From the NCBI RefSeq assembly GCF_009908195.1, contig NZ_JAAAHS010000001.1, positions 1 to 64,000 on the forward strand: 64,000 nt of DNA, written 5' to 3'. This document shows positions 57,797 to 64,000 of the stretch, one piece after another (the first letter of the stretch is position 1; each line of letters starts with the position of its first letter). Source of the DNA: Streptomyces boluensis (GTDB taxonomy: Bacteria > Actinomycetota > Actinomycetes > Streptomycetales > Streptomycetaceae). The translations under genes and the position numbers were made by a program. Below the pieces are notes generated by a model, which was not told the DNA's origin, ran no database searches, and was given only the letters and a program-made list of their open reading frames with translations.

Positions 57797-57870
57797 CGGG
57801 GTGTAGCGCAGCTTGGCAGCGCGCTTCGTTCGGGACGAAGAGGTCGTGGGTTCAAATCCCGCCACCCCGA
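57797..57870 (+). tRNA. tRNA-Pro(CGG)
   Basis: 74 nt. The acceptor stem CGGGGTG pairs with CACCCCG. The anticodon stem CTTCG/CGAAG holds the loop with CGG (reads CCG), the T-loop is GGGTTCAAATCC, and no CCA is encoded. It is the insertion site of the element that follows. The 3' half is intact, as expected when an element restores the gene on integration. Confidence 0.97.
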
Positions 57871-57887
57871 CAGCCGAAACACCAGGT

Positions 57888-59536: not shown

Positions 59537-59914
59537 CTAGGCCGCGGTCCCGAACTGGCTCTGCCGGGCTCGGCGTGGCGGCCGGGCGCGGAGACGAGCC
59601 GCGGGAGCGGCGGGTGACGAAGGATGTTGCGGAGCAGGGGACTTGGCGGCCGGAGCCGCTTTCGCTGCCTGTTGCTGCGGCAGGGCAGGGCGGGCCTCGT
59701 TCATGCGGATGATCTCCGCGAGGTGCTCGCCGGTGAAGCGGTACGCGCGGCCGACGCGGGTGAACGGGATGAGCCGACGGCGGGCTCGGTCCTTGACCCA
59801 CCAGGCGGAGCAGCCCAGTACGGCCGCGACTTCCTCGGGGACGTAGAGGCGCGGCGGGCCGACCTCTGCGTGTGCCGTCGGTGCGGAGGCAGGGGTTATC
59901 GCGGGTTGGCGCAA
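59537..59914 (-). CDS. xis: Excisionase-like small HTH protein
   Basis: 125 aa. Central MerR/excisionase-type winged HTH: PRLYVPEEVAAVLGCSAWWV, KDRARRRLIPFTRVGRAYRF, TGEHLAEIIR. The rest is an Ala/Pro/Arg-rich disordered tail of about 50 residues. Located 27 bp upstream of int on the same strand, the usual place for the directionality factor of such elements. Confidence 0.8.
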   Translation of the reverse strand: MRQPAITPASAPTAHAEVGPPRLYVPEEVAAVLGCSAWWVKDRARRRLIPFTRVGRAYRFTGEHLAEIIRMNEARPALPQQQAAKAAPAAKSPAPQHPSSPAAPAARLRARPPRRARQSQFGTAA

Positions 59915-60037: not shown

Positions 60038-60550
60038 CTATGCCTCGTCGGCGGATTGGGTGTCGTCGCGACCAGGCTGAGGACCGTGCATCTTCAGCAT
60101 GGTCTTGCTGGCCTCTTCCGCCATGGCGCTCTGGACCATGAGGTCGGCTTCCTCGCGGATGTCGGGGTGCTCGGCGAGGTAGGTGTCGAGCGCGTCGCGC
60201 GCCTTCGTGAAGGCCATGTTGGCTCTCTGGGTCGCGCGGAATGCATCCACGACCTCGTCGATGAGTTCCATGGCGCGGGCCTTCGCCGCCAGCTGCGGTG
60301 GCCCGACGAGATTGCGCAGGTCGATGCCTAGGACCTCGGCGAAGCCGATGGCATCGTCGAGGTTGATGCGGCGCTTCCCGTTTTCGATCCGCCAGACCGC
60401 GGACGGGTTCATCTCGAAGCCGGCTTCGTTGAGCCGGTCGGACAGGGCGTTGGTGCTCCAGCCGCGCGCCTCGCGCTCCACCCTGATGCGGGTCGCGACG
60501 TTCGCCTCGCCGCTGAGCAGGACGCCCTCGGACGGTTCTTCCTCCGCCAC
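60038..60550 (-). CDS. XRE-family repressor of the element
   Basis: 170 aa from GTG 60550, chosen for AAGGAGG 5 nt upstream over the ATG-like frame start at 60580. HTH at about 20-75: ATRIRVEREARGWSTNALSDRL, NPSAVWRIENGKRRINLDDAIGFAE. The C-terminal helical part (ELIDEVVDAFRATQRANMAF) may be for oligomerisation. Divergent from the plus-strand transfer/replication genes across a 285-bp region with three operator-like repeats. Likely maintains quiescence and autoregulates. Confidence 0.85.
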   Translation of the reverse strand: MAEEEPSEGVLLSGEANVATRIRVEREARGWSTNALSDRLNEAGFEMNPSAVWRIENGKRRINLDDAIGFAEVLGIDLRNLVGPPQLAAKARAMELIDEVVDAFRATQRANMAFTKARDALDTYLAEHPDIREEADLMVQSAMAEEASKTMLKMHGPQPGRDDTQSADEA

Positions 60551-60578
60551 CGGCACCTCCTTCCGTTCGTAGCGATGC

Positions 60579-60650
60579 ACTGCGGTTTGCAGTACAGCCT
60601 AAACAGTAGCATTGATACTGCGAGATGCAGAATGCTTCTGCGATCTGCAA
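60579..60650. promoter_or_regulatory. Triple operator region CTGC-N5-GCAG
   Basis: O1 ACTGCGGTTTGCAGT (60579-60593), O2 CTGCGAGATGCAG (60618-60630) and O3 CTGCGATCTGCAA (60638-60650). All are dyads with a 5-nt spacer. O2 and O3 are 20 bp apart and O1 is 38 bp from O2, close to whole helical turns. A minus-strand -10 TAGGCT (60601-60596) abuts O1. The layout resembles a phage repressor switch. Confidence 0.7.
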
Positions 60651-60723
60651 TTCATGTGGCATAGTGGTGGCATCCCACCCCACCGACCTCAGGAGTCGGC
60701 ACGCCCGCACGTCACATGAAAGA

Positions 60724-60746
60724 AGCCCCCGGCGATGCCGGGGGCT
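60724..60746 (+). terminator. Leader hairpin/attenuator before the DUF3631 gene
   Basis: AGCCCCCGGC-GAT-GCCGGGGGCT, a perfect 10-bp stem about 90 nt before the ribosome site of the DUF3631 gene. Terminator-like but without a T-run; it could limit leaky transcription of the transfer operon. Confidence 0.55.
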
Positions 60747-60835
60747 CAAGCGCAAACCTCTCAACCGCCATCCCTAGCGATCAACCTGCGGAGACCGGGA
60801 TTGCCGTCCCATATGGCCCGCAAGCAGAGGAGCTG

Positions 60836-62062
60836 ATGCCCAGTATGGCCGATGTCCAGCCGAATACGCCATCCCTTACCGATGCCTCAGACGAGGCCGG
60901 CCATGCCAGTGCGGTCCCGGCAGAGCCCCTGACCGAGGGGGCGGAGATCTTGGATGACCTGCGGGCGCAGCTCAAGCGGTACGTGGCGATGCCCAGCGAA
61001 GAGGCGCTCACTGCGGTGGCCTTGTGGGTCGCCGCCACCCATCTGCAGCCCGCGTGGCAGCACGCGCCGCGCCTGGCGATCGTGGCTCCGGAGAAACGGT
61101 GCGGTAAGTCCAGGCTCCTGGACATGGTGACCGAGACGGTGCACAACCGCCTGATCACGGTCAATGCCAGCGCGGCGGCGATCTTCCGGTCGATCGACGG
61201 GGACGACCCGCCCACGCTCCTGGTCGACGAGGCCGACACCCTCTTCAGCAGCCCCAGGGCGGCGGAGAAGAACGAGGAGGTCCGCGGCCTCATCAACGCC
61301 GGGCACCAGCGCGGCCGACCGACACTTCGGGTGTCCGGGCCGGAGCACCAGGTGCATGAGTTCCCCACCTTCGCCATGGCCGCCCTCGCCGGGATCGGCA
61401 ACCTGCCCGACACGATCCAGGACCGGGCGGTGGTCATCCGGATGCGCCGTCGCGCGGCGGGCGAGAAGGTGGCGTCCTTCCGCACCGGCCGGGACACCCC
61501 CGCCCTGAACGCGATCCGCGACCGCCTCCACACCTGGCTCCAGCCGCTGTTCGCGCAGGCCATGGAGACGGAGCCACCGATGCCGGTCGAGGACCGCGCG
61601 GCAGACACCTGGGAACCCCTGGTCATCATCGCCGACCTCGCCGGGGGCGACTGGCCGATGCTGGCCCGTACCGCCTGCCGCACCATGACCGACTACGAGG
61701 CCGGTCAGGACGAGGAGGGCGGCCTGCGCACCCGCCTCCTGGTCGGCATCCGCCGCGCCTTCGCCGCCGTCGGCGACCCGGCCATGCTGGGCACGAAGCA
61801 CCTCCTTGAGTCCCTCAACGCGGACAAGGAAGCACCGTGGGCGGAGTACGGCGCCAACGGCCTGACCCCGCGCGGCCTGCAGCTGCTCCTGAAGCCGTAC
61901 GGGATCGGCTCGGCCAACCGCCGCTTCCCCGACGGCACTCAGGCCAAGGGCTTCGCGCGCAACCAATTCCTCGACACGTGGGCGCGCTACTGCCCCGAGC
62001 CGAAGCCGGCTGACGGGCCCGCCCCACCTGCGGACGTGCCGCTGCCCGGCACCGCAGCCTGA
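60836..62062 (+). CDS. DUF3631 P-loop ATPase, stand-alone
   Basis: 408 aa. Walker A-like VAPEKRCGKSRLLDM, Walker B TLLVDEADTLF, then FPTFAMAALAGIGNLPDTI, a sensor-like region, and RMRRRAAGEKV. C-terminal DUF3631 (DEEGGLRTRLLVGIRRAF; GLTPRGLQLLLKPYGI). In many elements DUF3631 is fused to a primase-polymerase or is the replication ATPase; here no primase is attached. ATG 60836 is preceded by AGAGGAG; the longer frame to 60716 would run through the leader hairpin. Presumed replication or maintenance role. Confidence 0.85.
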   Translation: MPSMADVQPNTPSLTDASDEAGHASAVPAEPLTEGAEILDDLRAQLKRYVAMPSEEALTAVALWVAATHLQPAWQHAPRLAIVAPEKRCGKSRLLDMVTETVHNRLITVNASAAAIFRSIDGDDPPTLLVDEADTLFSSPRAAEKNEEVRGLINAGHQRGRPTLRVSGPEHQVHEFPTFAMAALAGIGNLPDTIQDRAVVIRMRRRAAGEKVASFRTGRDTPALNAIRDRLHTWLQPLFAQAMETEPPMPVEDRAADTWEPLVIIADLAGGDWPMLARTACRTMTDYEAGQDEEGGLRTRLLVGIRRAFAAVGDPAMLGTKHLLESLNADKEAPWAEYGANGLTPRGLQLLLKPYGIGSANRRFPDGTQAKGFARNQFLDTWARYCPEPKPADGPAPPADVPLPGTAA

Positions 62063-62080
62063 CTCGACGCCACTCGCATC

Positions 62081-62195
62081 ACTCGTCCCCGCGCAGGTCA
62101 GCGCGGGGACGAGTGAACAGCCCGCAACGAGTCGTCTCGACATCACCGCACCACTCGTACCTGTACTGACCAGGCACGCGACGAGTGGTACGAGT
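62081..62195. repeat. ACGAGT iteron cluster with 15-bp hairpin
   Basis: ACTCGT/ACGAGT occurs six times in 115 bp (62081, 62109, 62127, 62153, 62181, 62190). The first two cap a perfect 15-bp hairpin (CACTCGTCCCCGCGC, 6-nt loop, 62080-62115). Lies in the only long gap between the DUF3631 and DUF2637 genes. Candidate replication origin, oriT or operator array. Confidence 0.7.
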
Positions 62196-62284
62196 CCCAG
62201 CACCTCACGGCGGCCACGCCCTGCCCTCCCTTGCGCCGAGGCCGCCCCCAAGCCCACCTGGAGTACCCCCACTTGTTCGCCCGT

Positions 62285-63013
62285 ATGAACGCCTGGAGCG
62301 CCGCCGTCCGTGGCACCGGTGCGATCCGCGCCGGAATCGCCCTGCTCGCCGCGTTCGCCTTCGCCCTCTCCTACGACGCCCTGCGTCAGATGGCCGTCGC
62401 CATCCACATCCGCGGACTCCTCACCTACGCCTTCCCGCTCGTCATCGACGGGTTCATCGCCATCGGCGTCGGCGCGCTGCTCATGCTCCGCACCGCCCCG
62501 ACACGCTCCCGCGTCTACGTGTGGCTACTCGTCGGCGCAGCCACCCTGACCAGCATCTGGGCCAACGCCCTGCATGCGGTCCGCCTCAACCAGCAAGCCC
62601 GCAACGGCGTTGGCCTGCGGCTCGACGACGTCACCGTCGGCGGCCTGTCCGCCATCGCCCCGCTCGCCCTGGCCGGAGCCGTACACCTCTACATCGTCGT
62701 ACGCCGTCAGGACGTGGCTGATGTGGCTCCGGGTTCCGCCGCAGTGGCTGATGCACCGCAAGGGGCCGGTACGTCGGAAGAGCCCGTGCCCGATGAGGTC
62801 TCCGCCGAGAGGCTCGCCATCGCGCGCACGGCACCGCTCGGACGACAGGGCCGCGCCTCCCGCCGCCACATCGAAGCCACCTTCCGAGAACGCGACCTCA
62901 CCATCGGCCGCAAGGAAGCGGACCTGCTTAAGGACCTCGTCCAGGCCGAACTCGACGCAGCAGCCACCGCGCAGCGGCCAGAGCTCATCGCGACCGGCGC
63001 CGACGCCGCCTGA
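62285..63013 (+). CDS. DUF2637 membrane protein
   Basis: 242 aa. Four predicted membrane helices in the first ~140 residues (AGIALLAAFAFALSYDALRQ; LTYAFPLVIDGFIAIGVGALLML; YVWLLVGAATLTSIWANALH; GLSAIAPLALAGAVHLYIVV), the DUF2637 signature. A soluble helical domain (RHIEATFRERDLTIGRKEADL, an HTH-like C-terminus) follows. Found in actinobacterial integrative elements and plasmids, possibly linked to spread or transfer. The start is uncertain: ATG 62285, or TTG 62273 with GGAG upstream. Confidence 0.8.
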   Translation: MNAWSAAVRGTGAIRAGIALLAAFAFALSYDALRQMAVAIHIRGLLTYAFPLVIDGFIAIGVGALLMLRTAPTRSRVYVWLLVGAATLTSIWANALHAVRLNQQARNGVGLRLDDVTVGGLSAIAPLALAGAVHLYIVVRRQDVADVAPGSAAVADAPQGAGTSEEPVPDEVSAERLAIARTAPLGRQGRASRRHIEATFRERDLTIGRKEADLLKDLVQAELDAAATAQRPELIATGADAA

Positions 63014-63044: not shown

Positions 63045-63079
63045 GGTCGTCCCCGTGCTTCGCCGGTACGGGGACGACC
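63045..63079. other. Hairpin upstream of mobC (terminator or oriT element)
   Basis: Perfect 12-bp inverted repeat GGTCGTCCCCGT/ACGGGGACGACC with an 11-nt loop, 44 bp before mobC. No T-run. Position beside mob genes is typical for oriT. Confidence 0.45.
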
Positions 63080-63122
63080 CGCTCCTCCGCCAACAGCCCT
63101 GCCCACACTGGAGAACTAGTCC

Positions 63123-63785
63123 ATGCACGACGAATCCCGCCAACCCCCCACCCCCAAGCAGCAGATGACCACCGACCTCACGCACGAAAACAGCGGAGCA
63201 AGGTATCCCGTTGGACCGTCCAAGGGCCGGTTCCCCGGGGCAGCCTCCGCCCCGGGGGTGGCGGAGGCACGCGGGCGCCAGGGGGCACCCACGTCGGAGA
63301 AGCCCACCGTCGACACCGAGTTGCCGCTGCCGCGTGCCGCCGACGAAGCCGCCTTCCACCGCGTCGCCCGCCGCCGCACCCGCGACTCCGTCCAGCGCAA
63401 GCAGCGCGTCGACGCCCGCTACAGCACCACCGAGAAGACCAAGATCCTCTCCAAGGCCCGCTCCCTGAACATCTCCGGCGCCCACCTCGTGGCCACCGCC
63501 GTCATGGCCTACATCGACGGCGACCTCGCCCTGCCCGGCCAGCGCACCGAACTCGACGACTACATCGACGAACTCAACGCGCTACGCGAGCAGGTCGCCC
63601 GCGTCGGCCGCAACGTCAACCAGATCGCCAAGAAGCTCAACTCCGACGGCACCGCACACCCCACGGACATCGCCCTGCTCGCCCTGGCCGACCGCACCCT
63701 GGAGCACACCACCTCCGCCGTCCAGACCATCGCCGCAGCCGCGAACCAGGCCGTATCCACCGCCAGGAAGGCGACGGCCCGGTGA
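63123..63785 (+). CDS. mobC: MobC-type relaxosome accessory protein
   Basis: 220 aa. N-terminal ~85 residues look disordered. A ribbon-helix-helix-like stretch follows (DARYSTTEKTKILSKARSLN, ISGAHLVATAVMAYIDGD). The MobC motif REQVARVGRNVNQIAKKLNS is followed by two coiled helices. MobC helps melt oriT and load the relaxase. GGAG ribosome site; its stop overlaps the relaxase GTG start (GTGA). Confidence 0.88.
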   Translation: MHDESRQPPTPKQQMTTDLTHENSGARYPVGPSKGRFPGAASAPGVAEARGRQGAPTSEKPTVDTELPLPRAADEAAFHRVARRRTRDSVQRKQRVDARYSTTEKTKILSKARSLNISGAHLVATAVMAYIDGDLALPGQRTELDDYIDELNALREQVARVGRNVNQIAKKLNSDGTAHPTDIALLALADRTLEHTTSAVQTIAAAANQAVSTARKATAR

Positions 63786-64000
63786 TCGCGAAGATCACCG
63801 GAGGCAGGGACACCGCCGGCCTGCTCCGCTACCTCTACGACACCCGCAAGAAGGGCCACACCGACCCGCACCTGGTCGCCTCCTGGGACGGCTTCGCCCC
63901 CGACCCCGGACGCACGGCCGGCGACCCCGACGTGACCCGTCGGCAGCTGGTGGCGGACCTCGACCTGCACGTCGAGCAGGCCGAGCGGTTGGGCCGTGCG
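63782..64000 (+). CDS. Relaxase/mobilization nuclease, N-terminal fragment (cut by window edge)
   Basis: 73 codons visible. Starts VIAKITGGRDTAGLLRYLYD, then HTDPHLVASWDGFAPDPG, the recognisable beginning of actinobacterial MOBP/VirD2-like relaxases that nick oriT. The GTG overlaps the mobC stop. The catalytic tyrosine and HxH metal site lie beyond the window. Confidence 0.9.
   Translation, partial: MIAKITGGRDTAGLLRYLYDTRKKGHTDPHLVASWDGFAPDPGRTAGDPDVTRRQLVADLDLHVEQAERLGRA

Follow-up and report, generated by a model that had tools for sequence, protein, structure and literature searches.

A candidate replication origin of phased iterons downstream of the DUF3631 (RepAM) gene in an integrative element of Streptomyces boluensis

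The initiator helicases SaPI Rep and SCCmec Cch2 act at origins that sit directly 3' of their own genes, contain iterons and are bound by the C-terminal domain of the helicase (PMC7581432). The Cch2 origin also has inverted repeats; binding is lost when the direct repeats are deleted and kept when the inverted repeats are deleted, and the C-terminal domain binds alone (PMC7581432). RepAM, the DUF3631 protein, has been described as the replication initiator of actinobacterial integrating elements and predicted to be of the rolling-circle (RCR) type (Ghinet et al., PMC3218068). No origin for DUF3631 elements was found in the literature searched, in which their replication mode had been predicted only, and the phased origin described here is absent from PMC3218068 and from the rest of that literature.

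The window analysed here is a stretch of 64,000 nucleotides, and its region 62062-62195, some 135 bases, is likely, with a probability of roughly 0.8, to be the replication origin of an excised element, bound by a DUF3631 helicase that would unwind DNA both ways. The best reading, by analogy, is that this origin works like those of SaPI Rep and SCCmec Cch2. As in those systems, it lies directly 3' of an AAA+ helicase gene in an integrative element and combines short iterons with an inverted repeat; their C-terminal dsDNA-binding domain may have a counterpart here in a predicted winged helix. Unlike them, the DUF3631 protein has no detectable sequence similarity to solved structures, and the site has another word and core, is GC-rich, contains two fixed inverted units 93 bp apart, shows clade-wise diversification of its word and belongs to a Streptomycetaceae host. 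Elements of the RepAM pMEA300 type (PMC3218068) share the protein family and at times have a prim-pol neighbour, whereas the element in the window has a relaxase beside rep, and no FtsK/TraB dsDNA translocase was recognised among the proteins scanned, which comprised part of the reading frames of the element.

The element and the anatomy of the array

An integrative element begins within the window, which contains its left part. The 3' end of a tRNA-Pro(cgg) gene (57797-57871) forms the attL, and a 43-bp exact repeat at 57829 and at contig position 89683 defines an element of 31.85 kb, which therefore continues past the window end. The module follows the order integrase (-), xis-like (-), XRE (-), DUF3631 (+), array, DUF2637 (+), MobC-like (+) and relaxase (+):

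57829-57871, plus strand: attL, 43-bp 3' part of tRNA-Pro(cgg), with its exact repeat outside the window at contig 89683
57992-59509, minus strand: tyrosine integrase with an inserted LacI-type HTH
59537-59914, minus strand: excisionase-like HTH_17 protein
60038-60580, minus strand: XRE-type regulator
60716-62062, plus strand: DUF3631 (RepAM) AAA+ initiator helicase, the proposed origin-binding protein, with a C-terminal winged helix predicted for residues 335-425 or so
62274-63013, plus strand: DUF2637 membrane protein gene, start uncertain (TTG 62231, TTG 62274 or ATG 62286)
63123-63785, plus strand: MobC-like accessory protein
63782-64000, plus strand: 5' part of a MobA/VirD2-type relaxase, whose gene runs on to contig position 65476

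The LacI-type helix-turn-helix of the integrase (PF00356, E 1.8e-14) occupies residues 302-344, between the core-binding and catalytic parts, and the gene containing it aligns over its full length in close relatives. A strong hairpin (GGTCGTCCCCGT..ACGGGGACGACC) lies between DUF2637 and mobC at 63045-63082, a site where some relatives have a partial or degenerate origin copy. The cargo of the element includes a Wadjet anti-plasmid set (L183:8264-16232, contig 81263-89231), with matches to the JetA, JetC and JetD models and a 271-aa gene at the JetB place that has no model match; the element carrying it is itself expected to form a circle. Another cargo protein (L183:2303-4153) has a weak caspase-like domain and a PAS domain.

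An earlier note on this DNA had described six ACGAGT copies in 115 bp, in alternating orientation, with a perfect 15-bp hairpin, in the only sizeable non-coding gap. The six copies are exact and occur at 62081(-), 62109(+), 62127(+), 62153(-), 62181(+) and 62190(+), but this run of -,+,+,-,+,+ is not strictly alternating. The hairpin is indeed perfect, with arms at 62079-62094 and 62101-62116 that are 100% complementary, but these are 16 bp long; the loop of the inverted repeat (62079-62116) is AGGTCA. The gap, from 62063 to about 62273/62285, exceeds every other in the module, although gaps of 135 and 109 bp exist as well.

The array is formed by two inverted units, one on the minus strand (62072-62102) and one on the plus strand (62165-62195), with a start-to-start distance of 93 bp. 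Each has a TGACC(T/A)G box followed, after 14-15 bases, by outward-pointing iterons at 9-bp spacing, and degenerate minus-strand iterons (GCGAGT, 62072-62077; TCGAGT, 62062-62067) stretch the array on the left to the DUF3631 stop codon:

62062-62102, minus strand: left origin unit, core TGACCTGCG, then ACGAGT, GCGAGT and TCGAGT toward the DUF3631 gene
62079-62116, no strand: perfect 16-bp inverted repeat, the loop of which holds the left core
62109-62114, plus strand: inner iteron ACGAGT, dyad partner of 62081
62127-62132, plus strand: inner iteron ACGAGT inside the conserved block GCAACGAGTCG..TCGACATC
62153-62158, minus strand: inner iteron ACTCGT, left flank of the right unit
62165-62195, plus strand: right origin unit, core CTGACCAGG, then ACGAGT (62181) and ACGAGT (62190), 9 bp apart

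When the window was simulated 200 times with a first-order Markov model, ACGAGT reached at most three copies per 115 bp, and no second cluster of comparable kind occurs across the rest of the element. However, the local density by itself is weak evidence, because 11 of 1,924 6-mers also attain six copies within some 115-bp stretch of the real window; conservation decides. The RNA fold z-score is -5.0. The array has a GC content of 64.7%, compared with 70.2% for the window, and by that content it includes no AT-rich unwinding region.

Conservation of the unit and its linkage to the DUF3631 gene

Eighty loci that encode a relative of the DUF3631 protein were collected, 24 of them close, and the array region is kept in all 24 close relatives. 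Across 25 elements, the 140 bp 3' of the stop codon have a mean column identity of about 0.9, whereas third codon positions in the DUF3631 gene have 0.81 and the sequence just past the 140 bp has 0.5-0.8; the strongly conserved block stops about at the last iteron. More distant relatives have a different iteron word in an unchanged layout, in which tandem iterons of 9-bp period start 14-15 bases after the box GCAGGTCA (complement TGACC(T/A)GC). The word varies with the initiator clade, and includes ACGAGT (here), ACGGGT, ACGGAT, ACGGC, TAGCGG and TTGCGG. The lag-9 periodicity after the core has a z of 14.6 in 35 non-redundant units, with no comparable peak at other lags from 3 to 15, and the inverted units are 92-93 bp apart in other genomes where both copies fit one strict pattern.

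In 124 of 170 loci the core lies no more than 450 bp 3' of the DUF3631 gene, at a density of 2.97/kb compared with 0.20/kb elsewhere. A strict unit pattern overlooked loci with 8- or 10-bp spacing, and a relaxed pattern (TGACC-N8..12-RCGR-N4..6-RCGR) was adopted. With this pattern, 143 of 152 order-level loci have a unit in the 500 bp 3' of the gene, which corresponds to 2.9/kb versus 0.068/kb elsewhere, a 43-fold difference. The earlier note had named iterons not conserved among relatives as a refutation, and this check has been run with the opposite outcome: in those 143 loci the site keeps its position, its core box, the 9-bp phase and the inverted pairing. The note's suggestion of an origin recognised by the ATPase is supported by this layout beside the DUF3631 gene and by a word that follows the initiator clade. 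A unit-like sequence is also present in a locus of a different family (L180), the protein of which is 49% identical to a plasmid homologue.

Because the first locus set was gathered through the DUF3631 protein, the linkage within it is partly built in, and genomes were therefore searched with DNA only. In the loci fetched, the linkage to DUF3631 is exclusive. The 138-bp array used as a query has matches in 43 of 246 genomes; the strong ones adjoin listed DUF3631 genes, and four weak, short matches have no DUF3631 gene in the DUF3631 gene list. A one-unit pattern was detected in 25 of 392 genomes (reversed-pattern control, 0), and all of the loci fetched have a DUF3631 gene terminating near the units. 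The stop codon had been placed wrongly for L191, L224, L228 and L244; for L224, a second look puts the gene end beside the units. An orphan array (L197) lies 3' of a truncated DUF3631 remnant. Two circular plasmids (13.5 and 14.3 kb) have prim-pol, DUF3631 and the unit, and no further replication gene is annotated on them, in support of such a module replicating autonomously; pMEA300 was not among the plasmid matches.

Neighbouring genes, the initiator and competing readings

The mob, integrase, regulator and DUF2637 genes are swapped independently of the array. This bears on whether the iterons could instead be an operator array, bound by a regulator (DUF3631 itself, XRE or xis) and controlling the DUF2637-mobC-relaxase operon that lies downstream. 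Initiators do often autoregulate at their own iterons. However, the divergent XRE/DUF3631 promoter region has no ACGAGT, many array-bearing loci have no integrase, xis or XRE homologue (among ACGAGT-array loci, L018-L022, L024-L026 and L029), and in the TAGCGG clade the site sits ahead of xis/integrase genes instead. The supposed targets are no more constant: DUF2637 is missing or unlike in L007, L009, L012, L013 and L028, and mobC and the relaxase are likewise missing or very different in other array-bearing loci, with a strongly divergent relaxase in the ACGAGT-array loci L009, L011, L013, L014 and L028. An operator is thus an unlikely description of the site, and the earlier note's alternative of an array for another regulator is weakened, since the array persists in elements that have lost or exchanged XRE, xis, integrase, DUF2637, mobC or relaxase.

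Six loci (L046, L054, L056, L064, L072 and L074) have a relaxase at 0.6-0.67 of self score, a value also typical of many array-bearing relatives, yet have another initiator and a matching ACGGC array. The genome has another mobilisable element (L005, contig C423), in which the DUF2637 and relaxase genes are similar; DnaC-like and other replication genes replace DUF3631 there, and the ACGAGT array is absent. Across these comparisons, the iteron word tracks the initiator rather than the other genes tested.

The initiator contains a PF12307 domain (E 2.6e-71, full model covered), and the Walker motifs CGKS and VDEAD are invariant in an alignment of 34 DUF3631 proteins. A profile of the family has no similarity to any PDB sequence. 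An AlphaFold model of moderate confidence (mean pLDDT 63) resembles MCM helicases (Z 11.1) and SCCmec Cch (Z 9.5), with weak Foldseek listings of NrS-1, vaccinia D5 and PriRep1. Modelled alone, the C-terminal domain is a winged helix (pLDDT 80), and the structures nearest to it, with middling Z values of about 7, show winged-helix proteins on oriT and on replication origins. The prediction for the protein is accordingly an AAA+ helicase of MCM/D5-like type that ends in a winged helix. Association of initiator residues with the iteron word has a mean signal of 0.168 in the winged helix and 0.093 in the AAA part, a difference confounded by phylogeny in that different-word pairs are also more distant; the top associated columns fall in both domains, not in the winged helix alone. 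A tentative parallel is phage P4 alpha, an initiator helicase that recognises its origin, with short repeats oriented both ways, through a winged helix; it differs in including a primase and in acting at two separate sites. Foldseek lists it weakly (1ka8, E 0.58).

The predicted fold also bears on whether the site is a rolling-circle double-strand origin nicked in the hairpin, as would follow from the RCR prediction for RepAM and the putative pC194-like nick sites reported with it (Ghinet et al., PMC3218068). The strong hairpin with its conserved loop would suit such an origin. However, no invariant H-x-H pair of the HUH nuclease motif exists among the 34 aligned DUF3631 proteins, the predicted fold is that of a helicase, and in the TAGCGG and TTGCGG clades the hairpin does not enclose the core box. 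A nicked origin is very improbable on this evidence, and the DUF3631 array is, contrary to the RepAM prediction, probably not of the rolling-circle type.

The position of the array upstream of mobC-relaxase might suggest an oriT serving that pair, as might degenerate copies immediately before mobC in L054, L056, L064, L074, L006, L010 and L027. Such copies are partial and confined to a minority of relatives; they are missing or degenerate in most, with none in L046, and an oriT is disfavoured for that reason. In addition, the array does not travel with its relaxase: the same relaxase is found with other arrays (L046, L054, L072) and the same array with other relaxases (L009, L011, L014), and the site also occurs in TraB plasmids annotated without a relaxase. 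There is very little likelihood left for this function. The degenerate ACGAGT-type copies at L054:10685-10802, L056:10685-10802, L064:10476-10594 and L074:10461-10580 occur in loci with an initiator and working origin of the ACGGC type; a leftover of this sort is expected if the site's initiator was replaced, and these four appear to record a module replacement.

In the ACGAGT clade the hairpin arms carry iterons and the loop is the core box, whereas in the TAGCGG and TTGCGG clades the core box is outside the hairpin and a separate strong hairpin lies upstream of it. By this comparison the hairpin is not a fixed part of the core, and it may therefore be a rep terminator or a by-product of head-to-head iterons. 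The arms covary, a signal that RNA or ssDNA pairing and paired protein sites could equally produce; it lies to a large extent within the iteron words, as expected if one protein must fit both arms. A transcription terminator or structured RNA as the whole explanation would fit the strong, covarying inverted repeat directly past the stop codon, but it is scarcely credible given the absence of a T run, the covariation largely in iteron words, and the loop box and distant phased iterons that it leaves unexplained; sigma-70 promoter and T-run terminator scans found nothing, and an Rfam search returned no more than a spurious miRNA match far below threshold. The hairpin may nevertheless act as an additional terminator beside an origin role.

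A replication scheme and its significance

If region 62062-62195 is the origin, the DUF3631/RepAM protein would bind the 9-bp iterons through its C-terminal winged helix, and the two inverted units would seat two oligomers, loaded as hexamers, back to back and 93 bp apart, with a short inner region containing the TGACC boxes between them. The AAA+ motor, as a self-loading helicase, would then melt and unwind the DNA bidirectionally, with priming and extension by host or helper enzymes leading to autonomous replication. Priming would require host enzymes, because no prim-pol gene was recognised near rep of the window's element, unlike in the two circular plasmids. Against the origin reading stand this missing prim-pol gene, the lack of an AT-rich unwinding region, the partial second copies before mobC in a minority of relatives, the moderate confidence of the helicase model, the middling Z values of the winged helix and the word-associated residues outside that domain.

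It is about an even chance that DUF3631/RepAM elements in general share one design, in which two outward units at a fixed 93 bp position opposed, MCM-like, self-loading motors for bidirectional replication. Under such a design, the clade-wise iteron words would confer origin specificity and compatibility. Of 246 genomes sampled from the order (Streptomycetales), 125 have DUF3631 genes, and what is new, as judged from the loci compared, is a two-unit, 93-bp, 9-bp-phased design common to this large initiator family; also new is evidence, from the predicted models, for an initiator that is helicase-like rather than HUH-like.

If the shared bidirectional design is true, the rolling-circle view of RepAM would be superseded. 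The defined core and iterons make the mode of replication directly testable and provide a marker with which DUF3631 elements can be found and typed, and the natural initiator-origin pairs would be usable for vectors. Finally, the different words would account for the coexistence of several related elements in one cell.
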